A stretch of 13,451 nucleotides of DNA from Candidatus Aerophobota bacterium (lineage in GTDB: Bacteria; Aerophobota; Aerophobia; Aerophobales; B3-G15). This document shows, piece after piece, positions 1 through 12,537 of this stretch. The DNA lies in NCBI GenBank assembly GCA_014859225.1, contig JACUUP010000032.1:1-13451 (forward strand). The letters run 5' to 3'. The position numbers and the translations under genes are program-made. Position 1 is the first letter of the stretch. Each line of letters begins with the position of its first letter. The notes beneath the pieces are model-generated. The model was given only the letters and a program-made list of their open reading frames with translations, was not told the origin of the DNA and did no database searches.

Positions 1-111
1 AGCTTCATTCCAGCATCATGGATTGGCTGGGGCAAAAGTATTTTTTTCATTGGAGCTTCCTTCCTTATTGTAAAATTTTGGAAAAGCGAAGATTGGATTA
101 TGCGTCAGTAG
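1..111 (+). CDS. C-terminal fragment of a membrane protein, 5' end outside window
   Basis: An open frame runs from base 1 to a TAG stop at 109-111 and encodes 36 residues. The peptide has a hydrophobic stretch (roughly residues 13-25, SIFFIGASFLIVK) preceded by the Pro/Trp/Gly-rich segment PASWIGWGK, and ends in a charged tail (KSEDWIMRQ). This is what the last transmembrane helix and cytoplasmic tail of an integral membrane protein would look like. It converges with the endonuclease gene on the other strand, and the two 3' ends overlap by 14 bp. The family cannot be told from this fragment. It could also be a chance frame, since only 36 codons are visible. Confidence 0.4.
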   Translation, partial: SFIPASWIGWGKSIFFIGASFLIVKFWKSEDWIMRQ

Positions 112-1354
112 CACACAATACTTGAATCATATCTGCTAAGTATTGCTCTTTATCCTTATTTTTAGGGATAAGATCATCTTCAAAAACGGACGGGTATTTT
201 TGTAAAAGGTAACTCGTGATATCTAAAAGCTCACTCTCTCCACATTCACACATAATAAGTCTATCGTATTTCATTCTCAAATCTTTGTCTCTTTTGAGTA
301 AATCCCTAAAATTAATAGAGCAGTTCTTACCGTTTTTAAGTAAAAAAGCCCTTTCGTCTATAGCAAATAGTTGGGATAGCCACATATCATCGTATCTAAG
401 CAAGAGCAAATCAGATATAGAATAATCTTGTTGGAATAAAGCTTTGGGTATCTGATTCCCATACAATGCTCCAACTGTTACATTGAGTATGCTTTCTTTT
501 AAAGCTAGATCCAAAAGCAACTCTTCAGGGTTTTCTTTAATAATCTTTAGCGTTGGATTATTGGCAAGAAAATTCTTCAAATCTCTGTAGCCTTCCGCAT
601 TGGATGGGAAAAACCCCCTTTGTTTATCGCTCTCTTTGGTTGCTGGGGTTCCATCAACATTAAAAAGTATTCCAATATATACCTCAAAGTTTTTTACACT
701 GAAGTATTCAAGTAATTCTGAAAGGGAATATTTCTTGCCCTCTTTTGCGTATAATTTGGTTTTAGTGGCTAAGAGCTCTAAAATCGTCTTAAATTTCTTT
801 GTCCAAACTTCTCTTCTTCCAGCAGTACCTCCAGTATCCACGCGATTTTTTAGTTCAATTAAAATAAGTCTATTTCGAGATAGTAGATTACCCACATCTG
901 TAGTTTCCTCCTCTTTGCCTAACCAGTCCCAATCTATATTTCGTAATACACCTTTTTCTTCTGGGGTTAAGCCTGATTGAGTTAAGATTCCTTTTTTGCG
1001 GTGAAGCTCGGGATATTCTAACCACATTGGTAACTCACTCAACTTAATGTTCATTGAACAAGTTTCTATAACAGAGGATATTTTCTTCTCTACATATTTT
1101 CCTTTACCGCCTTGACTATGTTGATAGAATGAAGTGATACCTAATAGAGCCTCATAGTAATGTTTCATATCTTCTGATATGCTTTCTAATCCATTAAAAG
1201 TTCGAGAAATAGGATCAAAATCAATAGCAGATTTTTCTGTAGCAAGAGCTACAAAGTTAATCAATACATTCTTATAGGGTCGGTATAAGAGTAAATGTCC
1301 TAAGTCTAATGCATTCTCTTTCTTAACACAGAGAAGATTTCTTTTTATTATCAT
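98..1354 (-). CDS. Type II-like restriction endonuclease (PD-(D/E)XK-like)
   Basis: Probable restriction endonuclease that cuts DNA left unmodified by the upstream methyltransferase. The frame is open back to a TTG at 1366, but the ATG at 1354 is preferred because it forms an ATGA overlap with the methyltransferase stop, giving 418 residues. Numbered from the TTG (422 aa), a PD-(D/E)XK-like core is visible: D157, then a hydrophobic strand (RLILI) running into E171-L-K173, the ExK pair with typical spacing. A Gly/Arg-rich loop (DTGGTAGRR, 177-185) and a Trp/Lys-rich stretch follow, and the rest is mixed helical. There is no signal peptide and no obvious membrane segment. The protein was not matched to a named enzyme family, so the assignment rests on the ExK motif and on pairing with a DNA methyltransferase. 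Translation is probably coupled to the methyltransferase, as no clear Shine-Dalgarno precedes the ATG. Confidence 0.75.
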   Translation of the reverse strand: MIIKRNLLCVKKENALDLGHLLLYRPYKNVLINFVALATEKSAIDFDPISRTFNGLESISEDMKHYYEALLGITSFYQHSQGGKGKYVEKKISSVIETCSMNIKLSELPMWLEYPELHRKKGILTQSGLTPEEKGVLRNIDWDWLGKEEETTDVGNLLSRNRLILIELKNRVDTGGTAGRREVWTKKFKTILELLATKTKLYAKEGKKYSLSELLEYFSVKNFEVYIGILFNVDGTPATKESDKQRGFFPSNAEGYRDLKNFLANNPTLKIIKENPEELLLDLALKESILNVTVGALYGNQIPKALFQQDYSISDLLLLRYDDMWLSQLFAIDERAFLLKNGKNCSINFRDLLKRDKDLRMKYDRLIMCECGESELLDITSYLLQKYPSVFEDDLIPKNKDKEQYLADMIQVLCATDA

Positions 1355-2679
1355 GGTTTTTCGCAAATTATAATACTTTCTCCTCTAATTGCTCTGTTAC
1401 GTGCTCCAAGAAGAGGATTAAATATCAATTTTTTAAATTTAAATCCGGCTTCTTCGCAGAATTTCTTTGTCGTCATTGTTGTTGGTATCTTTTTAGAGTA
1501 AACAGTACTATCTCCTACTATTATGGCGAGTTTACCTTGAGGTTTTAATGCCCAAAAGATATTTTCTATAGATTTTTTCAGGTCCTGGTAATATAAAGCT
1601 ACTCTTATAGGAAAATTTTTATATTCTCTACTTAATTGACCATTATTTTTCATCCCCAAATATTTAGATTCAACTTTTTTCATCTCCACTCCTAAATAAT
1701 CATAGGCGATTTTGTCCTTACCGACATAGTCTATAGAAAAATAATAAGGAGGAGAGGTTATTACAGCATCAAATTTGCCTTCAAATTCTTCCATATTCTT
1801 TAACTCCAGGATATCTTTTTCTATAATCTTAGCAGGTTCAAACTTCAAAGAATATTTTTCTTTCATCTCCATTATTTTTTTATAGCAATTTTTAATATAA
1901 TTGAACTTTTCTATAAATAATCCAGTTTTTCCCTTTCTGTTGTATCGAGAGGTTCTCGCAAAGGCATCAATGGTGTCAAAGTATATAGCTAACATTAACT
2001 TATAAATTACAGGATTATGGTGCTTCCATTTTTTATTTTCTACCTCTTGAACAATGTCTATTAAATCTTGAAGGTGGAAATCTAACTTTCTCTCATCAAT
2101 AAAGAGAAGAGCATTTTTTAACTCAGATAGAACCACTCCCATTGGTGTTACATCCATGCCAACACTTCTAATTCCCATAAGAGAGGCTTCGTGAGTGGCT
2201 GTTCCAGAGCCATTGAAAGGGTCAAGAACAAGGGCATTATTTTTTAACTCAAAGGTATTTATTAAAGTTCTTACTATCCTTGGATAGAATTTTCCTTTAT
2301 AAGGGTAAAGATTATGGAAGGCATAAGCGTTAGTATCACCAAACGTATCCACTATATCTGTATATAGCGTTGTTTTTCCTCCCACTTTTTCAAGATGAGC
2401 AACTCTTAATCTTATAAATTCTATGTCTCCCTTAAGGGTAGCTTTTCTATTTACTGGATCAATTTTATATTCCTCAGTTAATCCTTCTAATTCAAGATCT
2501 AAAAACTCTAAGTCTGCTAAAGTCTGCATCCAGAAACCAAATACCGTATCCCCTTTCGGTGTTACATAATTTGTAAACTCCTTGGAATATGTTTCAATTA
2601 TTTCTTCAAAGGAAGGAAACTCATAAGTTCCAAACATTGTCATCTGTTCTTTATTATTTTTTGCACCGACATTTTTCAT
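1351..2679 (-). CDS. DNA methyltransferase (SPPY-type, N4-cytosine or N6-adenine) of a restriction-modification pair
   Basis: S-adenosylmethionine-dependent DNA base methyltransferase, the protecting partner of the downstream endonuclease. From the ATG at 2679 it has 442 residues. It carries a motif X-like region (HNLYPYKGKFYP, about 122-133), motif I for SAM binding (VLDPFNGSGT, about 151-160), an acidic residue after the next strand (GMDVTP, motif II region), and the catalytic motif IV TSPPYY (about 308-313). SPPY favours exocyclic amino methylation, often N4-cytosine. The order is motif I then motif IV, whereas most SPPY N4-cytosine enzymes of the beta class have motif IV first. The frame opens upstream to an ATG at 2715 (454 aa), but that site has no Shine-Dalgarno, while AAGGAG at 2689-2694 sits 9 nt before the 2679 ATG. 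Its stop overlaps the endonuclease start. Target specificity cannot be read from sequence. Confidence 0.88.
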   Translation of the reverse strand: MKNVGAKNNKEQMTMFGTYEFPSFEEIIETYSKEFTNYVTPKGDTVFGFWMQTLADLEFLDLELEGLTEEYKIDPVNRKATLKGDIEFIRLRVAHLEKVGGKTTLYTDIVDTFGDTNAYAFHNLYPYKGKFYPRIVRTLINTFELKNNALVLDPFNGSGTATHEASLMGIRSVGMDVTPMGVVLSELKNALLFIDERKLDFHLQDLIDIVQEVENKKWKHHNPVIYKLMLAIYFDTIDAFARTSRYNRKGKTGLFIEKFNYIKNCYKKIMEMKEKYSLKFEPAKIIEKDILELKNMEEFEGKFDAVITSPPYYFSIDYVGKDKIAYDYLGVEMKKVESKYLGMKNNGQLSREYKNFPIRVALYYQDLKKSIENIFWALKPQGKLAIIVGDSTVYSKKIPTTMTTKKFCEEAGFKFKKLIFNPLLGARNRAIRGESIIICEKP

Positions 2680-2801
2680 CTCGCCCATCTCCTTATGGTG
2701 TAATTTTCTCCTCATAGGTATTTTTTCTATCCATTCATCAATAATCTCTTTTTTAAATCTCCAATTTCCTCATTATTTCAGTTTCATTGCTTATAATATA
2801 C

Positions 2802-3993: not shown

Positions 3994-4554
3994 TTACAGT
4001 CCAAGTTCATCTGATATATTTTGCATGGCCCGAAGAACACACTCTATATGTTCTTTTAACTCAATTCCCAGGTCCTTTGCTCCTTTTTCTATGTTTTCCC
4101 TGTTTACACCTCGGGCAAAGGCTTTATCTTTCCACTTTTTCATAAGTGATTTTACCGTTACCTCAGATATTTTCTTAGAGGGACGAACAAGCGAGACAGC
4201 AACAATAAAGCCTGTTAGCTCATCCACTGCATAAAGTGTTTTTTCCAGAAGAGTTTCTCTTGGAATACCTGTGTGGTCCCCGTGAGCAAGAATTGCCCGC
4301 ATCATCTCTTGAGGATATCCTTTCTCTTTCAGTATTTTTACTCCCTTGAAAGGATGCTCTTCAGGGGTGGGGAATCTTTCATAATCAAAGTCGTGCAAAA
4401 GTCCAGTTACACCCCACTTTTCCGCATTCTGGTTAAATTTTTTTGCATAAGCTCTCATAGCTGCCTCAACAGCAAAGGCATGTTTTATCAAATGTTCATT
4501 TGTAGTAAATTCTCTTAGAAGCTCAAGGGCTCCCTCTCTACTTGCCCATTCCAT
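3994..4554 (-). CDS. HD-domain metal-dependent hydrolase
   Basis: A 186-residue single-domain HD-superfamily protein, expected to be a cytoplasmic metal-dependent phosphohydrolase. The metal ligands are visible: H25 in the helix HLIKHAFAVE, the HD doublet H54-D55 (LLHDFDYE), H91 and H94 (AHGDHTG), and the distal acidic residue D111 (AVDELTG). This pattern matches small stand-alone HD hydrolases that act on nucleotides or phosphate esters; substrate unknown. GGGGAGG at 4559-4565, read on the minus strand, is a strong ribosome binding site for the ATG at 4554. It is the first gene of a two-gene unit with the flavoprotein, transcribed from the predicted promoter at 4588-4616. Confidence 0.85.
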   Translation of the reverse strand: MEWASREGALELLREFTTNEHLIKHAFAVEAAMRAYAKKFNQNAEKWGVTGLLHDFDYERFPTPEEHPFKGVKILKEKGYPQEMMRAILAHGDHTGIPRETLLEKTLYAVDELTGFIVAVSLVRPSKKISEVTVKSLMKKWKDKAFARGVNRENIEKGAKDLGIELKEHIECVLRAMQNISDELGL

Positions 4555-4654: not shown

Positions 4655-4684
4655 ATTTTAAATAATCCTGTTTTGGAGGAGTCA

Positions 4685-5917
4685 ATGAGAAGGGCAAAGT
4701 CCTTGGGCAAAGTTATACCGAAAGAGGAATTTATCTCAAGGCTGGGAAAGGTGGCACATAGATTTTTTGCGCTGGCAAATTTTTTACTTGAAAAAAAAGA
4801 GCTAAGCCAAAGTTACTACTCTAATTTAGCAAGCGAAGCCCACACGCTGGAGACGTTTTTGGATAATTATAAGGCTCGGGGAAACAGGTTCTTTGCTTAT
4901 TTTACGGAACTTGTTGCCTGTATCAGGTGGATTGCTTATGCCGCTCATACCACAAGGCACATTCAGAATAGATTTAAAGGCTATGGCCTTGAGGAAAATG
5001 ATAAATTTTTTTTACATATCCAAAGTCTTGTAGAATTTTGTGATGATTCTCTTCGCGGGCTCTATGAAGCTTTAAGGAAAGAGGCTATATCTCTTGGTAT
5101 AAAGTTATCATCTGGCTATATGGTAGAGGAGGAATTTCTGGAAACCGAAGTTCAGGAGTATCTTGTCCAGGATATGGATGAGGTTTACTACTGTCTTTCC
5201 GAGGGAGAAAGAGTGACAGAAATTACTTTTGCTTACGTAGACCTGGCAGATAGATTATCCGAACTTTTAAAAATTGATGAACCAACCGAGGATAAAATAC
5301 AAGAGTTTACAAGTTCTTTCCATAGAATCCAATCAAAATATGATAGTTATATAGGTGGCAGTGAAGAGGAAAAAAAAGATAAACAGCTTAAAACACTAAG
5401 AGGTTACATCTCCATCTGTTTACATTTACTTGAAGTAGCCTTTTTGATATTGCATTTTTACGAAAGACATATTCAAGCAGAAAGTTTAAGTGAGGTAAAA
5501 AAGAAAATATCACAAATTGTGGACCTGTTTAAGGTTAAAGAAAATGTAAAGATGGTGTCCGAATATGCGAATGATTATGTTTTAGAAGGAAAAGTTCTTG
5601 CGAAAAAGCTTTTAAGAGAGTATGCAGATGTGACTTTAGCAAGAGAAAAGGTGATTATCCCCAAAGGGTCAATACTTCATTTAAGACCAGCATCAGCATT
5701 GGTGGAGCCTGTCATCCAGTGCACAACCCCGGTTCTTCTGGAAATAGATGGGAAAAGAGTCAGAGCAAATAGTGTTCTGGAGATTATTGCAGCAATGGGA
5801 GAAGTGGCAGATAAAATAGAAAAAAGTGATGTAGAAATGGTTCTTCAGGGAGACCGGAGGGTGGTAAAAAAAATGAAGGATAACTTTTTAAGCAAGATTT
5901 TAGAGACCAGGTATTGA
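4685..5917 (+). CDS. Helical protein with C-terminal HPr-like phosphocarrier domain
   Basis: A 410-residue cytoplasmic protein. Residues 1 to about 315 are charged and apparently all helical, with no membrane segment and no family I recognise. Residues about 320-410 match the HPr fold in length and motif: strand EKVIIPKGS, then the active-site segment LHLRPAS with H332 (the phosphorylated His in HPr) and R334, then strand VLLEIDGKRV, then ANSVLEIIA with S363 at the position of the regulatory Ser46 of HPr, and a closing helix. HPr passes phosphate from enzyme I to PTS permeases or, in regulatory paralogues, to other proteins. A 330-residue N-terminal extension is unusual. The ATG at 4685 is chosen over an in-frame TTG at 4673 because GGAGGA (4675-4680) is correctly spaced from it. 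pyrE starts 9 nt after its stop. Confidence 0.72.
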   Translation: MRRAKSLGKVIPKEEFISRLGKVAHRFFALANFLLEKKELSQSYYSNLASEAHTLETFLDNYKARGNRFFAYFTELVACIRWIAYAAHTTRHIQNRFKGYGLEENDKFFLHIQSLVEFCDDSLRGLYEALRKEAISLGIKLSSGYMVEEEFLETEVQEYLVQDMDEVYYCLSEGERVTEITFAYVDLADRLSELLKIDEPTEDKIQEFTSSFHRIQSKYDSYIGGSEEEKKDKQLKTLRGYISICLHLLEVAFLILHFYERHIQAESLSEVKKKISQIVDLFKVKENVKMVSEYANDYVLEGKVLAKKLLREYADVTLAREKVIIPKGSILHLRPASALVEPVIQCTTPVLLEIDGKRVRANSVLEIIAAMGEVADKIEKSDVEMVLQGDRRVVKKMKDNFLSKILETRY

Positions 5918-5926
5918 GGTGCAAAG

Positions 5927-6490
5927 ATGATTTCCAACAGGGATAAAGAGTATCTTCTTGGGCTTATAAAAGAAAAAGCATTGTTTTATCAGAGAATAAA
6001 GCTTTCCTCGGGAAAGCAAAGTGGCTATTATATAGATGCAAGACAGATTAGCCTATCAGGAGAAGGTGCCTACCTAATAGCAAAAACAGTTTTTAACCTG
6101 ATAAAGGAAGATAATATACAGGCAATTGGAGGACCTACAGTTGGTGCTGACCCAATTGTAGGGGCAGTTGCTTGTTTTAGTGAGTTGCAAAAAACCCCGC
6201 TTCAGGCGTTCATAGTTAGAAAGGAGCCTAAAAAACACGGCATGCAAAGATATATAGAAGGGCCTCCCTTAAAAAAGGGTATGAGAGTGGCAATTATTGA
6301 CGATGTCGTAACTACGGGTGAGTCAGTTATTAGAGCAGCTAATGTTGCACAGGAGCTGGGATGTGAGGTTGTTAAACTAATTGCTCTCATAGATAGATTG
6401 GAAGGAGCTGAGGAGAGGTTGAAACAGTTGGGATTTACGTTAACCCGTGTATTTACTCGAGATGATTTAGGGATAACACCAGTCTCCTGA
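5927..6490 (+). CDS. pyrE: Orotate phosphoribosyltransferase
   Basis: Catalyses orotate + PRPP to orotidine 5'-monophosphate, the fifth step of de novo UMP synthesis. The 187 residues match bacterial/archaeal PyrE length. The PRPP-binding motif VAIIDDVVTTGES (121-133) is intact, as is the flexible catalytic loop RKEPKKHGMQ (98-107), whose lysines and histidine contact pyrophosphate. The N-terminal KLSSGKQSGYYIDAR (25-39) is the usual orotate-side signature. The ATG at 5927 is preceded by GAGGTG, which overlaps the end of the HPr-like gene, so the two genes are closely coupled. No other pyr gene is in the window, and the Glu/Thr-rich tail ends shortly after ITPVS as usual. Confidence 0.93.
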   Translation: MISNRDKEYLLGLIKEKALFYQRIKLSSGKQSGYYIDARQISLSGEGAYLIAKTVFNLIKEDNIQAIGGPTVGADPIVGAVACFSELQKTPLQAFIVRKEPKKHGMQRYIEGPPLKKGMRVAIIDDVVTTGESVIRAANVAQELGCEVVKLIALIDRLEGAEERLKQLGFTLTRVFTRDDLGITPVS

Positions 6491-7763: not shown

Positions 7764-8435
7764 ATGAAAGGTGACGAAATAATTAAGGGGATAGGAGAAC
7801 AGCTATACCGCACACTTAAACAGAGGATTGTTGCACTTGAAATGCAGCCAGGGGAGCGTATTAACTTTTCAGATTTATCCAGGGAATTTGGGGTTAGTTT
7901 AAGTCCTCTGCGTGAGGCGGTAAAGAAATTATGTGAGAGTAGATTGGTAGAGTTTTTCCCCCGAAGGGGATATTATATATTTAAACCAGCTGTAGAGGAT
8001 GTGAAAAACATCTACGAATTAAGGAGAATGTTTGAGCACCATGCACTTAATTCCTTTAATAAGAGCAATCAGGATGATAAGAATTTACGAAAACTAAAAA
8101 AATTAGGCGAAGCTGTTCTGGGTAAAGGTGAGGAGAAAAAAAGAGCTATCTTGCTTGAGACTGAACAGATTCATATCTTTACAATCAGCCATTCAGAAAA
8201 TACTCACATGAAAAATCTTTTCCGCTCAATATATGATTTTACTCTATTTTTCCAGCATATGGTGGAAAGGGATATAGAGAGGTTTATAGGTGAGCATATA
8301 GCTATGGCAGATGCTCTTTTGAAGGGTGATATCAAGAAAGCTCACCAATTAGTGGATGAGCATACGGACGCAGCTATTCGGGAGATATGTAGAGCGCTGC
8401 AGGTAAGAGAGAAAGCGAGTAAAAGTAGCTTATAA
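7764..8435 (+). CDS. GntR-family transcriptional regulator (FadR subfamily, FCD domain)
   Basis: Ligand-responsive DNA-binding regulator, probably controlling the adjacent ABC transporter and catabolic genes. The 223-residue protein has an N-terminal winged helix-turn-helix (about 8-75) with the family signature INFSDLSREFGVSLSPLREAV and wing RRGYYI. It then has an all-helical FCD ligand domain: the IHIFTISHSENTHM helix supplies a His at the usual metal site, and later EHIAMAD and DEHTDAA supply further His ligands. The residue at the SR-P position of the recognition helix is SPLREAV, as in other FCD-type proteins. Effectors in this subfamily are usually small organic acids or sugar acids. 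The start is the ATG at 7764; only a weak purine-rich site precedes it. Confidence 0.9.
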   Translation: MKGDEIIKGIGEQLYRTLKQRIVALEMQPGERINFSDLSREFGVSLSPLREAVKKLCESRLVEFFPRRGYYIFKPAVEDVKNIYELRRMFEHHALNSFNKSNQDDKNLRKLKKLGEAVLGKGEEKKRAILLETEQIHIFTISHSENTHMKNLFRSIYDFTLFFQHMVERDIERFIGEHIAMADALLKGDIKKAHQLVDEHTDAAIREICRALQVREKASKSSL

Positions 8436-8693
8436 TTAAGTGATTGGAAGAACTACTTTATCCTGGAGGTTTAAAGTCAAACCAGGAAAAGAGCTAAAAA
8501 TAAGGACCGGGAGGAGGTGTTAATATTAGAAAGTTAATAGGTCCCAATAGCTCAGGGATAAAGAATGTTTTCAGGAGAAGAGGTGTTGAAAGGTTATAAG
8601 AAGCTTTCAGGAAAAATGGTGTAAGTCATGTAGAGAGAGTGCCGGATAAATTATCAGTAGTGTTTTATGAGAGTAAAATACAGGGAGGTTAGA
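8436..8693. other. Leader region before the binding-protein gene, with hairpin and degenerate frame
   Basis: This 258-bp region has no intact gene. It begins with a stem-loop (CCTGG..TTT 8462-8472 paired with AAACCAGG 8479-8486, with a 3-nt bulge and a 6-nt loop) that lacks a following U-run. A strong Shine-Dalgarno-like GGAGGAGG (8510-8517) is not followed by a normal start codon. A frame from 8528 to 8692 is peptide-like (RKLIGPNSSGIKNVF, then EAFRKNGVSHVERVPDKL) but carries a TAA at 8597-8599. Within it TTTCAGGAGAAGAGGTGT (8569-8586) recurs 36 nt later (8605-8622) with 15 of 18 bases the same. It could be a decayed small gene or a regulatory leader. Confidence 0.35.
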
Positions 8694-9743
8694 ATGTATA
8701 AAATAAAGGGTTGGTTGGTGATAGTGCTAACCCTGGCGTTAATCATGGGAACAACAGGAGTTGCTTTGGCACAAAAACCGATAGTAATTGGTGCTGTACC
8801 TTTCTATTTGGATAGGTATGACTCTTTCATGTTATATCTAAGGGAGACGGAACGCAGATTAAAGGAATTGGGAGTAGATTATAGACTAATTACGCGTGCT
8901 CCAGCCGGGGGTGCTAAGGACCATATAGGTCAATTAGCAATCATTGAAGATATGGTTGCTATGGGGGTGGATTATCTGGCGATGCTACCTACCAGCATAG
9001 AGATGCAGATACCAGCTTTCGGTCACGTTATTGAAGCAGGTATTCCGCTGATTATTACTGATTACCTGGATTACATAGAAGGTAGTGATGTTCCGGAAAC
9101 GGACCAAGAGTATTTTATAGCATATTCCCATTCTGATATGGGTAAGGCTGTTGCTGATTACGTCAAGGAAAACTATCGTAAGGGTGTAAAAATGGCCATA
9201 ATCCACGGTATCCCTGGACATATTACTAACGAACGGGCTGCGGAACACCTGCACATAGCAAATGGTGTGAATATAATATACAGGCACTGGGCTGACTTTG
9301 ATCGAGCCAAAGCTTATGCAGCTACCCTGGATGTACTTGTTGCCCATCCGGACGTAGAAATTATCCTGGGCATGAATAGCACTATGGCCATAGGTGTTGT
9401 TGCAGCAGTTGAGGCTATGGGGCGTCTTGACGACATTGATGTAATTGGATATGGTGGAATTATAGAGGAGCTAAATAACGTTGCGCTGGGCCGAATGATT
9501 ACCGTTGCCAGAAGTCACTTTCACACGGGCAAAGCTATGGCTGATATAATCTATCTTCACAGTCAAGGATTTAAAGACGTGCTGAGGAGGTCTATTCGTA
9601 CACCTTGCCTTGTACTTGATTCTGCCCAGGCTATCCGGGACAAATGGGACCATCGTTACCTTGAGATGATGCGCGAGGCATGGCCTGCTGACCCTGGCAT
9701 TGAGGTGTTCAATAAGTTATTTGGCGACTTAGTTGGACAATAG
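8694..9743 (+). CDS. Periplasmic sugar-type substrate-binding protein of ABC importer
   Basis: Extracytoplasmic solute-binding protein of the ribose/galactose-binding (PBP1-like) family, which delivers substrate to the downstream RbsC-type permease. The ATG at 8694 is preferred, with GGGAGG at 8683-8688 upstream, over an in-frame ATG at 8667 with no such site; this gives 349 residues. The N terminus is a signal peptide: MYKIK, a hydrophobic core, then VALA before Q27, a signal peptidase I site. There is no lipobox Cys, so the product should be free in a periplasm. The mature protein starts with strand KPIVIGAVPFY. Two alpha/beta lobes follow, with family segments such as GVDYLAMLP, AGIPLIITD, DVEIILGMNSTMAIG and DIDVIGYGG. 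The substrate is unknown; the flanking regulator and enzymes suggest a sugar, polyol or sugar-acid-like compound. Confidence 0.87.
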   Translation: MYKIKGWLVIVLTLALIMGTTGVALAQKPIVIGAVPFYLDRYDSFMLYLRETERRLKELGVDYRLITRAPAGGAKDHIGQLAIIEDMVAMGVDYLAMLPTSIEMQIPAFGHVIEAGIPLIITDYLDYIEGSDVPETDQEYFIAYSHSDMGKAVADYVKENYRKGVKMAIIHGIPGHITNERAAEHLHIANGVNIIYRHWADFDRAKAYAATLDVLVAHPDVEIILGMNSTMAIGVVAAVEAMGRLDDIDVIGYGGIIEELNNVALGRMITVARSHFHTGKAMADIIYLHSQGFKDVLRRSIRTPCLVLDSAQAIRDKWDHRYLEMMREAWPADPGIEVFNKLFGDLVGQ

Positions 9744-9781
9744 AAGAGTTTGAAAAACAGTAATTTCCGGCATTTTCTAAG

Positions 9782-9816
9782 TAGTGAAAGTTGAAGTTTT
9801 TCTCTTCATTTCACTA
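9782..9816 (+). repeat. Hairpin 1: 8+5-bp stem downstream of binding-protein gene
   Basis: TAGTGAAA (9782-9789) pairs with TTTCACTA (9809-9816), and after a 2-nt bulge TGAAG (9792-9796) pairs with CTTCA (9804-9808), closing a 7-nt T-rich loop. It begins 38 nt past the stop of the binding-protein gene. No U-run follows, so it is more like an mRNA 3'-end stabiliser than a terminator. Confidence 0.65.
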
Positions 9817-9826
9817 TAACCCACAA

Positions 9827-9886
9827 CAGGGGGAGGTGGAAACATTTCACAAAACATAAAGACAGGGAAAATTCCACCTCCCCTTG
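9827..9886 (+). repeat. Hairpin 2: 15-bp GC-rich stem between binding protein and permease
   Basis: GGGGAGGTGGAA (9830-9841) is exactly complementary to TTCCACCTCCCC (9872-9883). One G-U pair and two more pairs (9827-9829 with 9884-9886) extend the stem to 15 bp, with a 30-nt loop. The stem is very GC-rich compared with its surroundings. There is no U-run after it, so it should not terminate transcription by itself but could block 3' exonucleases. Confidence 0.8.
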
Positions 9887-9978
9887 CCTCAAAATGGTGG
9901 GGGTTGCTGAAAGCAAGAAGCGGTAGGCTTTTTAGAGTTTTATAAAGGGCAAAAAAGCGAATTCAGGAGGTTAATTCT

Positions 9979-10962
9979 ATGGTTAATTCTGTGCAATTAA
10001 TTTTGCGTAAATGGAAGATACTGGAGTATGCATATCCTAATTTTCGTGTTTTGACGACACTGTTCTTAATCTTCGTGGCAGCGATGATACTGCTGTCTAA
10101 TTTGAATCCCAGATTCTTTACCGTGGTTAATCTAACAAACATAATGACACAGTGTTCCATCTACGTAATTATGGGTATAGGCATGACGCTGGTTTTAACC
10201 ACGGGTGGACTTGATATTTCTATCGGTTCCATCGTTGGATTATCCACGGTTTTGATGGGGATTACCATGGTCCTGCTTCGCTATCCCACATGGGCGGGAG
10301 TTTTGATTGGGTTAGCAGTAGCAACTGCCTGTGGTGCTTTCAACGGTTTTTTTATTGTAGGGTGTAAGGTGCCGCCGCTTATCGTGACTCTGGGTAGCCT
10401 GGCTGTGTTTCGGGGGTTAGCCTATGTCTTGTCGGAGGGGGAGCTCTTTTTCGGCTTTCGCAGGGACTTTGTCTGGTTCTCCCGGGGAAGAGTTTTAGCA
10501 ATTCCCATGCCTATCTGGCTGGCAGTCATTGTGTTTATTCTGGGGTATTATCTTCTTAATAAGACTGTGACCGGGCGTCATGTCACCGCAATCGGCGGCA
10601 ATGAAGAAGCTGCTGCCTATACGGGAGTGCGTATCAGACGCCTCAAGTTTCTAACGTATGTGCTTAGTGGACTTTTAGCCGGCGTAGCAGCCATAATTTA
10701 TACGGCCCGCCTTAATGCTGCCCAGCCCACCATCGGCATGGGAGATGAGATACACGTCCTTGCTGCTGTAATTCTGGGCGGGACATCTCTTTTCGGTGGT
10801 CGTGGTACGATGCTTGGTACATTACTTGCGGTAGTGCTATTGCAGGTAGTGTCAAATGGGGTACTTCTTGCAGGTGTAGGGTTCTTCTGGCAGCAGGTGC
10901 TAATAGGGCTTATCTTTATTATTGTAGTGGCTTTCCGCACCCTTGGAAAAAGGGAAGCCTGA
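9979..10962 (+). CDS. Sugar ABC transporter permease, RbsC/AraH type
   Basis: Membrane subunit of a monosaccharide-type importer (BPD_transp_2 family). The 327 residues are mostly hydrophobic, with about eight to ten transmembrane segments. The family signatures are visible: TTGGLDISIGSIVGLST (74-90), the cytoplasmic coupling segment GGNEEAAAYTGVRIRRLK (206-223) that meets the ATPase, and AAVILGGTSLFGGRGTMLGT (262-281) in the last third. The ATG at 9979 is preceded by AGGAGG. It probably works as a homodimer with the ATPase encoded 29 nt downstream and receives substrate from the upstream binding protein. Confidence 0.92.
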   Translation: MVNSVQLILRKWKILEYAYPNFRVLTTLFLIFVAAMILLSNLNPRFFTVVNLTNIMTQCSIYVIMGIGMTLVLTTGGLDISIGSIVGLSTVLMGITMVLLRYPTWAGVLIGLAVATACGAFNGFFIVGCKVPPLIVTLGSLAVFRGLAYVLSEGELFFGFRRDFVWFSRGRVLAIPMPIWLAVIVFILGYYLLNKTVTGRHVTAIGGNEEAAAYTGVRIRRLKFLTYVLSGLLAGVAAIIYTARLNAAQPTIGMGDEIHVLAAVILGGTSLFGGRGTMLGTLLAVVLLQVVSNGVLLAGVGFFWQQVLIGLIFIIVVAFRTLGKREA

Positions 10963-10991
10963 ATTCTAAAATAAGCAGGGGAGCATACAGG

Positions 10992-11741
10992 ATGGAAAAG
11001 CAAAATTCAGTAGTAGTCATGAAGAATATCTGTAAAAGTTTTGGCGGCCTCCAGGCCTTAAAAAATGTAAATTTAAATCTCTATGAAGGGGAAGTTTTAG
11101 GAATAGTTGGTGATAATGGAGCGGGAAAATCAACCTTAATCAAGATTTTGAGTGGAGCCTACACCAAGGATGAAGGTGAAATATATGTTTTTGGTGAAAA
11201 AAGAGATATCAAGTCTCCCTTAGATGCCAGAAATTTAGGAATAGAAACCATTTATCAGAACCTGGCTCTGGTACCGGAATTTACCCCCGTAGAAAATGTA
11301 TTTCTTGCCCGGGAACTCAGAAAATCATTGCTAAGGTTGAGAGTTTTAGATAGAAAAAAAATGAAAAAAGAAATGGCTGGAACGCTTAAAAAAATTGGGA
11401 TAGATTCTGCAATGTTAGGGGCTGTGACGCGGAATCTGTCGGGTGGGCAGCAACAGTCAGTAGCAATTAGCAGAGCGATTCATTGGGATGCAAAAATTAT
11501 TATTATGGATGAACCAACCGCGTCTTTAGGGGTAGAGGAAAGTAGGAGAGTATTTCATGTTGTTAGGCAATTAAAGGAAAAAGGCGTTTCGGTTATACTC
11601 ATCACCCATAATATGCACAGCATTTTCGAGGTTTGCGATAGGATTGAGGTCTTAAGATTAGGAGAAAATGCTGGTATGCGAATGCGGGAAAAGACTACCC
11701 CGCAGGAGGTTGTAGGATTGATTATGGGCGAGAGGCCTTAA
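10992..11741 (+). CDS. Sugar ABC transporter ATP-binding protein (single-domain)
   Basis: Cytoplasmic ATPase powering the importer. It has one complete nucleotide-binding domain: Walker A GDNGAGKST (40-48), Q-loop IYQN with Q89, signature LSGGQ (149-153), Walker B IIIMDEPTA (169-177) and H-loop ITHN with H206. At 249 residues it is half the length of RbsA/MglA/XylG, which carry two fused domains. It therefore resembles FrcA-type single-domain ATPases and must dimerise. GGGGAG upstream of the ATG serves as ribosome site. The gap to the permease is 29 nt, and the SDR gene follows by 46 nt, consistent with one operon. Confidence 0.93.
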   Translation: MEKQNSVVVMKNICKSFGGLQALKNVNLNLYEGEVLGIVGDNGAGKSTLIKILSGAYTKDEGEIYVFGEKRDIKSPLDARNLGIETIYQNLALVPEFTPVENVFLARELRKSLLRLRVLDRKKMKKEMAGTLKKIGIDSAMLGAVTRNLSGGQQQSVAISRAIHWDAKIIIMDEPTASLGVEESRRVFHVVRQLKEKGVSVILITHNMHSIFEVCDRIEVLRLGENAGMRMREKTTPQEVVGLIMGERP

Positions 11742-11787
11742 ATCTGCGCTTGGTCTTCCATGTTTTCTAACAAAAGGAGGAGGGAAA

Positions 11788-12537
11788 TTGAGCCTCAAAA
11801 ATAAAACAGCTATTGTAACCGGGGCAGGAAGAGGGATTGGCGAAGCTTATGCCCTGGGGTTTGCTAAAAAAGGGGCTAATGTGGTGGTAGTTGACATTAA
11901 CCCCTCAGATGCTAAATCTGTTGCCAAAAAAATTGAAAAACTCGGTAGCAAAGTGCTTGTTCAAATTAGCGATGTTACTAAAAAAGCAGATGCTGAAAAG
12001 ATGGTTGAGGAAACTTTGAAAAGTTTTGGTAAAATTGATGTTCTGGTGAATAATGCTGGAATCCTTTTCCAGGAGCCATTTATATCTTCCACAGAAGAGC
12101 AGTATTACAAGATGTACGATGTGAATGTTAAAGGTGTTTTTCTCTGTGCCCAGGCTGTTTCCAAACAGATGATAAAACAAAAAAAGGGTAAAATAATAAA
12201 TGTTTCCTCCATCGCCGCAATTGTAGGGCAAACCAATCTATCTTTATACAGCTCTTCCAAAGGAGCAGTTCTTTCTCTAACCCGGGCTATGGCTCTTGAA
12301 CTTGCTCCTTACAATATTCAGGTTAATGCTATTTTACCTGGAACCACAGAGACTCCTATGGCAGCTGAAGCTTTAGCCAATCCACAAACCCGGGCCCAGC
12401 TAACCAGTGGAATTCCTCTTGGTAGATTGGGTAAACCCGAGGACCATGTGGGAGCAGTTCTTTATTTTGCCTCCGAAGAATCCAACTGGTGTACCGGTCA
12501 GACTCTAATTGTGGATGGAGGTTACTCTATGGTATAA
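11788..12537 (+). CDS. Short-chain dehydrogenase/reductase (SDR), probably NAD-dependent
   Basis: Classical SDR oxidoreductase of 249 residues that oxidises or reduces a hydroxyl/keto group. The cofactor motif TGAGRGIG (11-18) is followed by D36 after strand VVVVD, which favours NAD(H) over NADP(H). NNAG (88-91), N113, and the catalytic set S141, Y154 and K158 (YSSSK) are intact, as is the late PG motif ILPGTTETPM. The start is TTG at 11788, supported by the very strong AAAGGAGGAGGG just upstream; no ATG alternative fits this site. It sits in the transporter operon and next to a thiolase, so its substrate may be an imported polyol or sugar acid, or a 3-hydroxyacyl-type compound. The substrate cannot be decided from sequence. 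Confidence 0.92.
   Translation: MSLKNKTAIVTGAGRGIGEAYALGFAKKGANVVVVDINPSDAKSVAKKIEKLGSKVLVQISDVTKKADAEKMVEETLKSFGKIDVLVNNAGILFQEPFISSTEEQYYKMYDVNVKGVFLCAQAVSKQMIKQKKGKIINVSSIAAIVGQTNLSLYSSSKGAVLSLTRAMALELAPYNIQVNAILPGTTETPMAAEALANPQTRAQLTSGIPLGRLGKPEDHVGAVLYFASEESNWCTGQTLIVDGGYSMV

Follow-up and report, generated by a model that had tools for sequence, protein, structure and literature searches.

A gene for a helical domain joined to HPr

The window (the whole 13,451-nucleotide stretch of DNA analyzed here) derives from an Aerophobota MAG. An open reading frame at 4685 to 5917 (+ strand) encodes a 410-residue protein, which we characterized by translation, by alignment of 83 full-length homologues, and by an AF2 model of the complete chain (pLDDT 91.1, pTM 0.82). 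Direct reading places a Shine-Dalgarno-like GGAGG at 4675 to 4679 (+), 5 nt before the ATG at 4685, and this start codon is kept in the nearest relative (L017/L004). Residues 1 to 317 (4685 to 5635, +) form a helical domain, and residues 318 to 410 (5636 to 5914, +) form an HPr domain. HPr, the phosphate-passing protein of the bacterial phosphotransferase system (PTS), is among the best-studied bacterial signaling proteins and usually occurs either on its own or attached to further PTS domains. Promoter- and terminator-like sites flanking the fusion gene occur at near chance levels.

Only 9 nt downstream lies pyrE, encoding orotate phosphoribosyltransferase (5927 to 6490, +; TIGR00336, E=4.4e-38), with which the fusion is probably co-transcribed. 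A divergent upstream gene encodes an HD-domain protein (3994 to 4554, - strand; PF01966, 4e-9) and is kept only in L017. The preliminary description of this DNA had read the coupling to pyrE as a link to nucleotide or carbon balance, a proposal that the comparison of loci does not sustain. It is very unlikely that the fusion is a pyrimidine- or nucleotide-linked regulator: the fusion-pyrE order with its short gap recurs in L017, but pyrE adjoins the fusion at no other locus examined, and the neighbors change by phylum (Idi-like/HNH-like in Nitrospinota, HemW/ParB-type in Planctomycetota, and LexA-like in Omnitrophota). We therefore rejected pyrE as a conserved partner, the adjacency being confined to two Aerophobota loci.

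Some of these neighborhoods recur within a group. At about 23 Nitrospinota loci (L005, L006, L031, and others), the fusion lies between HNH-nuclease-like and isopentenyl-diphosphate-isomerase-like Nudix genes. At Omnitrophota-type loci (L067, L075, L079, and others), it is followed by a LexA-like gene on the same strand (six loci), and a DinB-like polymerase gene stands at +3 (five loci).

Two other regions of the window deserve mention. At 98 to 2715 (-), a gene for an N6/N4 DNA methylase (PF01555) overlaps by 16 nt a gene for a 422-residue protein without a Pfam match; the two look like a restriction-modification pair with an unrecognized endonuclease. At 7764 to 12537 (+), a GntR/FCD regulator is followed by a sugar-type ABC transporter (binding protein, permease, and ATPase) and then a short-chain dehydrogenase, and the transporter is consistent with sugar uptake via ABC rather than PTS.

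The C-terminal domain has the fold and active site of HPr

The preliminary description had placed a complete HPr domain at the C terminus of a larger helical protein, and both profile and structural comparisons bear this out. Taken alone, the window protein matches PF00381 below threshold (E=0.0021, 18.5 bits, cut-off 23) and TIGR01003 at 6.6e-6, also below the cut-off of that model. Across the family, PF00381 is found at E<=0.1 in 70 of 71 members (best, 7.6e-9), its curated cut-off is passed by many, though not all, members in the genome-wide search, and a profile of the family finds solved HPr and Crh structures with E values down to 1.5e-13. The AF2 elements (strand 318-325, helix 333-344, strands 351-354 and 357-360, helix 364-380, strand 383-390, and helix 391-408) follow one another in the order of the HPr topology over residues 318 to 408, and the modeled domain has the open-faced beta-sandwich HPr fold. 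In VIA-align, solved HPrs superpose on it with Z about 11 and rmsd 1.7 to 2.0 Å over about 80 residues (1pch: Z 11.3, rmsd 1.7 Å, 80 residues).

The motif LHLRPAS holds H332 (codon 5678 to 5680, +), the predicted phospho-histidine equivalent to E. coli HPr His15, together with R334 and P335 at the Arg17 and Pro18 positions. The resulting His-x-Arg-Pro active site is present in 83 of 83 sequences, so that the two residues singled out beforehand, H332 and R334, are conserved in every homologue. S363 (codon 5771 to 5773, +), within ANSVLEII, occupies the Ser46 position and is retained in 82 of the 83 (98%). Gly67 and the hydrophobic residues after Ser46 are mostly retained in a position-by-position comparison with E. 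coli HPr. We conclude, from alignments and models together, that the C-terminal domain is a genuine HPr and not a chance resemblance.

Whether such a domain accepts phosphate could be doubted on the precedent of Crh, which lacks the active-site His. Crh is the best single solved-structure match of the window sequence, and the domain in the window falls under the Pfam cut-off, as might be expected of a domain that serves for docking and receives no phosphate on His, in a protein that works by binding partners only. However, all 83 proteins have the His, Arg, and Pro, whereas the Crh alignment has Gln at the His position, and we consider this reading highly improbable.

The N-terminal domain is predicted to be a pair of helical bundles

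AF2 predicts two four-helix bundles in the N-terminal domain, the first comprising helices 13-36, 42-61, 71-96, and 106-136 and the second helices 173-197, 202-222, 233-262, and 281-317. Folded alone, the domain reaches a pLDDT of 92 and a pTM of 0.90. The helical and HPr domains are probably rigidly joined, because helix 281-317, the last of the bundles, passes directly into HPr strand 1 in the model of the whole chain and a flexible linker is not predicted. The alignment of 83 full-length proteins, from which all conservation figures derive, contains nearly invariant residues at L59, A64, and L160 and at about 15 polar positions (E56, D60, N67, E75, R81, H92, R96, E202, D220, R239, H247, H257, E260, R261, and H262). 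So many conserved polar residues would exceed the needs of a structural spacer.

The earlier reading had recognized nothing in this part of the protein, and searches of Pfam, NCBIfam, the PDB, and BFVD (viral) likewise gave no convincing match. DUF7923, YfbR, and GCP_N appeared only as scattered chance matches and were rejected as identities of the domain. Foldseek comparison of the N-terminal model with the PDB and BFVD returned nothing with E<=0.001, and its top rows were GPCRs and designed bundles, which are background for helices. The VIA-align scores for CheA P1 (HPt; Z 9.4 over 121 residues), IpaD (9.2), PilJ (8.5), and CHAD (7.2, rmsd 12.7 Å) are all within the background for helical bundles (Z under 13), and the lack of a match does not in itself show a new fold. 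Two further candidates were set aside. hhalign put the LE-SFLD / LQS-YD and the H..R motifs of the two bundles in register, as an internal duplication would, yet at a probability of 0.1%. Homology to Rsd/AlgQ fared no better (hhalign against E. coli Rsd, 0.1%; zero Pfam match in 71 members).

The nearly invariant histidines raise the possibility that the helical domain is itself a phosphoacceptor, on H92, H247, H257, or H262, much as EIIA is in the multiphosphoryl transfer proteins FPr and DhaM. There is precedent for HPr fused to its own acceptor domains (PMC2405797), and the top structural neighbor is the CheA P1/HPt bundle, at a Z score that is insignificant. By sequence, the helical part matches neither HPt nor any other PTS domain; no EIIA or EI domain was found in 71 family members, and matches to FPr/DhaM profiles fell within the HPr portion of each profile. 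As the structural scores are background and stand-alone EIIA proteins are already present as acceptors, we regard a phosphoacceptor role as rather unlikely, although it would be compatible with the explanation that we prefer below.

The fusion is spread over several phyla and is probably old

The nearest named relative, L017, is from a Candidatus Aerophobetes MAG and is 67% identical. A single-sequence scan of genome contigs recovered zero relatives, and an alignment-based scan recovered 94, of which 80 loci were kept. These loci belong to Planctomycetota, Nitrospinota, Omnitrophota, a TA06 bin, a Nitrospirae bin, and others. In a survey of 386 spread genomes, the N-terminal domain was found in 16; in 15 of these, the HPr motif lies in the same frame, and the sixteenth (G381) is cut by a contig end. 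A complete N-terminal domain without HPr was never seen in this survey. In open-access literature, we found no description of the helical-domain/HPr architecture.

The tree largely follows the boundaries of phyla, which makes an old origin of the fusion probable. Planctomycetota fall on one side of a branch with support of 95/90. The window protein and L017 group with Omnitrophota (98/93), a placement whose long branches mark it as a possible artifact.

Fusion-bearing genomes encode the partners of a proposed relay without a sugar permease

Genome-wide presence and absence were judged from profile searches of genomes, most of which are MAGs, so that absence calls hinge on completeness and profile sensitivity. 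An enzyme I (EI) is encoded once in the window's genome (contig C207), with a GGRTSH active-site motif in its translation. The same genome has three EIIA_2 domains that carry the PH motif of the active site, two of them stand-alone (contigs C192 and C123) and the third, on contig C2, fused to an octopine-dehydrogenase-like protein. EIIA-Man, EIIC, and HPr kinase (PF07475) were all undetected in profile searches of this genome. Its sole HPr match is the fusion, with the proviso that in a 91%-complete MAG a free HPr could be absent from the assembly, a risk lessened by the gene order at serS and by the evidence of other genomes that are nearly complete.

The contexts of two of these EIIA genes are suggestive in their own right. 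The protein encoded on contig C2 (L132, 2103 to 3734), in which EIIA_2 is joined to an NAD-binding/octopine-dehydrogenase-like part, is a possible enzyme target of the relay. The stand-alone EIIA gene on contig C123 (L130) adjoins genes for Na+/H+ antiporter-like membrane subunits and for a small protein resembling P-II by eye, surroundings that hint at what EIIA regulates in this genome.

We searched 35 fusion-bearing genomes, and EI is present in 32. Free HPr occurs alongside the fusion in 18 (Planctomycetota and a few others), where the fusion is thus not the only carrier, and was undetected in 17; PF00381 misses divergent Omnitrophota-type fusions, and a divergent free HPr in that group could escape likewise. 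EI is present in 14 of the 17, and all 14 (the window's genome and the near-complete G021 and G140 included) also have EIIA, which is directly upstream of EI in 10. PTS_EIIC was detected in 0 of 22 genomes by a search with PF02378 only, which was positive in 7 of 14 controls.

HPr kinase scored above the cut-off in 1 of the 35 fusion genomes, in a search of imperfect sensitivity (B. subtilis, which possesses HprK, is missing from the control list), and direct reading of the ptsN/ptsI loci of fusion-only genomes found the kinase gene absent. The preliminary description had taken S363 for a regulatory serine. Such a role is unlikely because HPr kinase is almost never found in this imperfect search, and the conservation of this residue, with the kinase nearly always undetected, probably reflects a role in structure or in contact with EI.

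The gene for free HPr is missing from orthologous loci

In Aerophobota, the gene order LysM protein-HPr-serS is present in G003 and G010, and HPr also stands beside serS in G015. The fusion carriers G000 (the window's genome) and G001 have LysM protein-serS without HPr. A similar pattern is seen at PTS cassettes: the Nitrospinota genomes G021 and G219 have rpoN-hpf-ptsN-ptsI-metK without HPr, and G140 and G208 have hpf-ptsN-ptsI without HPr. G078 retains a free HPr, positioned in a cassette of the hpf-ptsN-ptsI type. In the window's genome, hpf, ptsN, and metK lie together on contig C192, with ptsI elsewhere. G206 keeps EIIA, EIIA-Man, and EI, and no HPr open reading frame was found in the 478-bp gap between EIIA-Man and EI. 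At the serS and ptsN-ptsI loci, EI, EIIA, and HPr were tested with Pfam and the other gene names were read from translations. Read most simply, these gene orders mean that the job of HPr passed to the fusion and that free HPr was lost.

These loci also bear on the idea that the fused domain is an accessory sensor, reading EI~P while the relay itself passes through a distinct, free HPr. Such a division of labor may hold in Planctomycetota, and the coexistence of free HPr with the fusion in 18 of 35 genomes would fit it. However, free HPr is undetected in the window's genome, in G021 (98% complete), in G140 (96%), and in 14 others, and its gene is gone from the orthologous serS locus and from ptsN-ptsI cassettes. 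We consider an accessory role unlikely as a general explanation.

DISCUSSION

We propose that the fusion serves as the HPr of a regulatory relay without transport, in which phosphate would run from EI through the fused HPr to EIIA and the helical domain would be a coupled sensor or output module, and we consider this explanation likely. EI would take phosphate from PEP and hand it to H332, from which it would move to a stand-alone EIIA of the Ntr/Fru type. Phosphotransfer through the fused HPr is thus postulated from the conserved active site and gene inventory. The helical domain would sense or act on something in the cell, its activity being gated by the phosphorylation state of H332; alternatively, a ligand of the helical domain may gate phosphotransfer. 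In either direction, gating between the two domains is a supposition of the model. The preliminary description had suggested a signaling protein that reads the PTS phosphorylation state. PTS-linked signaling stands as the best reading, with free HPr and EIIC undetected, but the picture of an extra reader does not, as the fusion is probably the relay's own HPr.

A permease-less PTS relay works in Brucella (PMC2937029), and a PTS with EI^R and an rpoN cluster has been described (PMC2405797). The fusion genomes resemble this EI^R/nitrogen-type regulatory PTS (rpoN-hpf-ptsN) in having EI and EIIA (Ntr/Fru-type) without a sugar permease and ptsN beside hpf (plus rpoN in Nitrospinota). They differ in that the cassette is without free NPr/HPr and in that HprK and EIIA-Man are usually undetected. 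Strictly speaking, the relay does not qualify as PTS-Ntr (PtsP/PtsO/PtsN), because the EI of the window's genome has no room for the N-terminal GAF domain that is a feature of PtsP (PMC13104625): its frame is 594 residues long, and PEP-utilisers_N begins about 15 residues in.

The fusion itself also departs from known HPr-containing proteins. HPr and NPr (PtsH and PtsO; PF00381, TIGR01003) share its fold, topology, His15/Arg17/Pro18, Ser46 position, and Gly67 but are free-standing, whereas the HPr described here is joined to a 317-residue helical domain without a predicted flexible linker. Multiphosphoryl transfer proteins of the FPr/FruB and DhaM types likewise carry HPr C-terminally in a larger cytoplasmic protein. 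Their partner domain, however, is EIIA-Fru, EIIA-Man, or EI, and in the fusion its place is taken by an undescribed helical domain. The E. coli Rsd-HPr complex (PDB 4xwj) offers a parallel in which a helical regulator binds HPr, but there the two are separate proteins, and the helical part has no detectable homology to that of the fusion.

To our knowledge, there is little experimental work on the PTS in Nitrospinota, Omnitrophota-type, and Aerophobota groups. The fusion is seemingly the only HPr of many Nitrospinota genomes, of many genomes of the Omnitrophota type, and of some Aerophobota, and this would explain how a relay can run where EI and EIIA are encoded but apparently "no HPr" is. 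More tentatively, and with somewhat more doubt than confidence, we suggest that the two-bundle domain represents a previously unrecognized kind of PTS output domain (or of phosphoacceptor or sensor) that occurs only with HPr and that a carrier and effector combined in one protein replaced free HPr in several phyla. Finding what the helical domain does would offer a direct way into what is regulated by a PTS without a permease.
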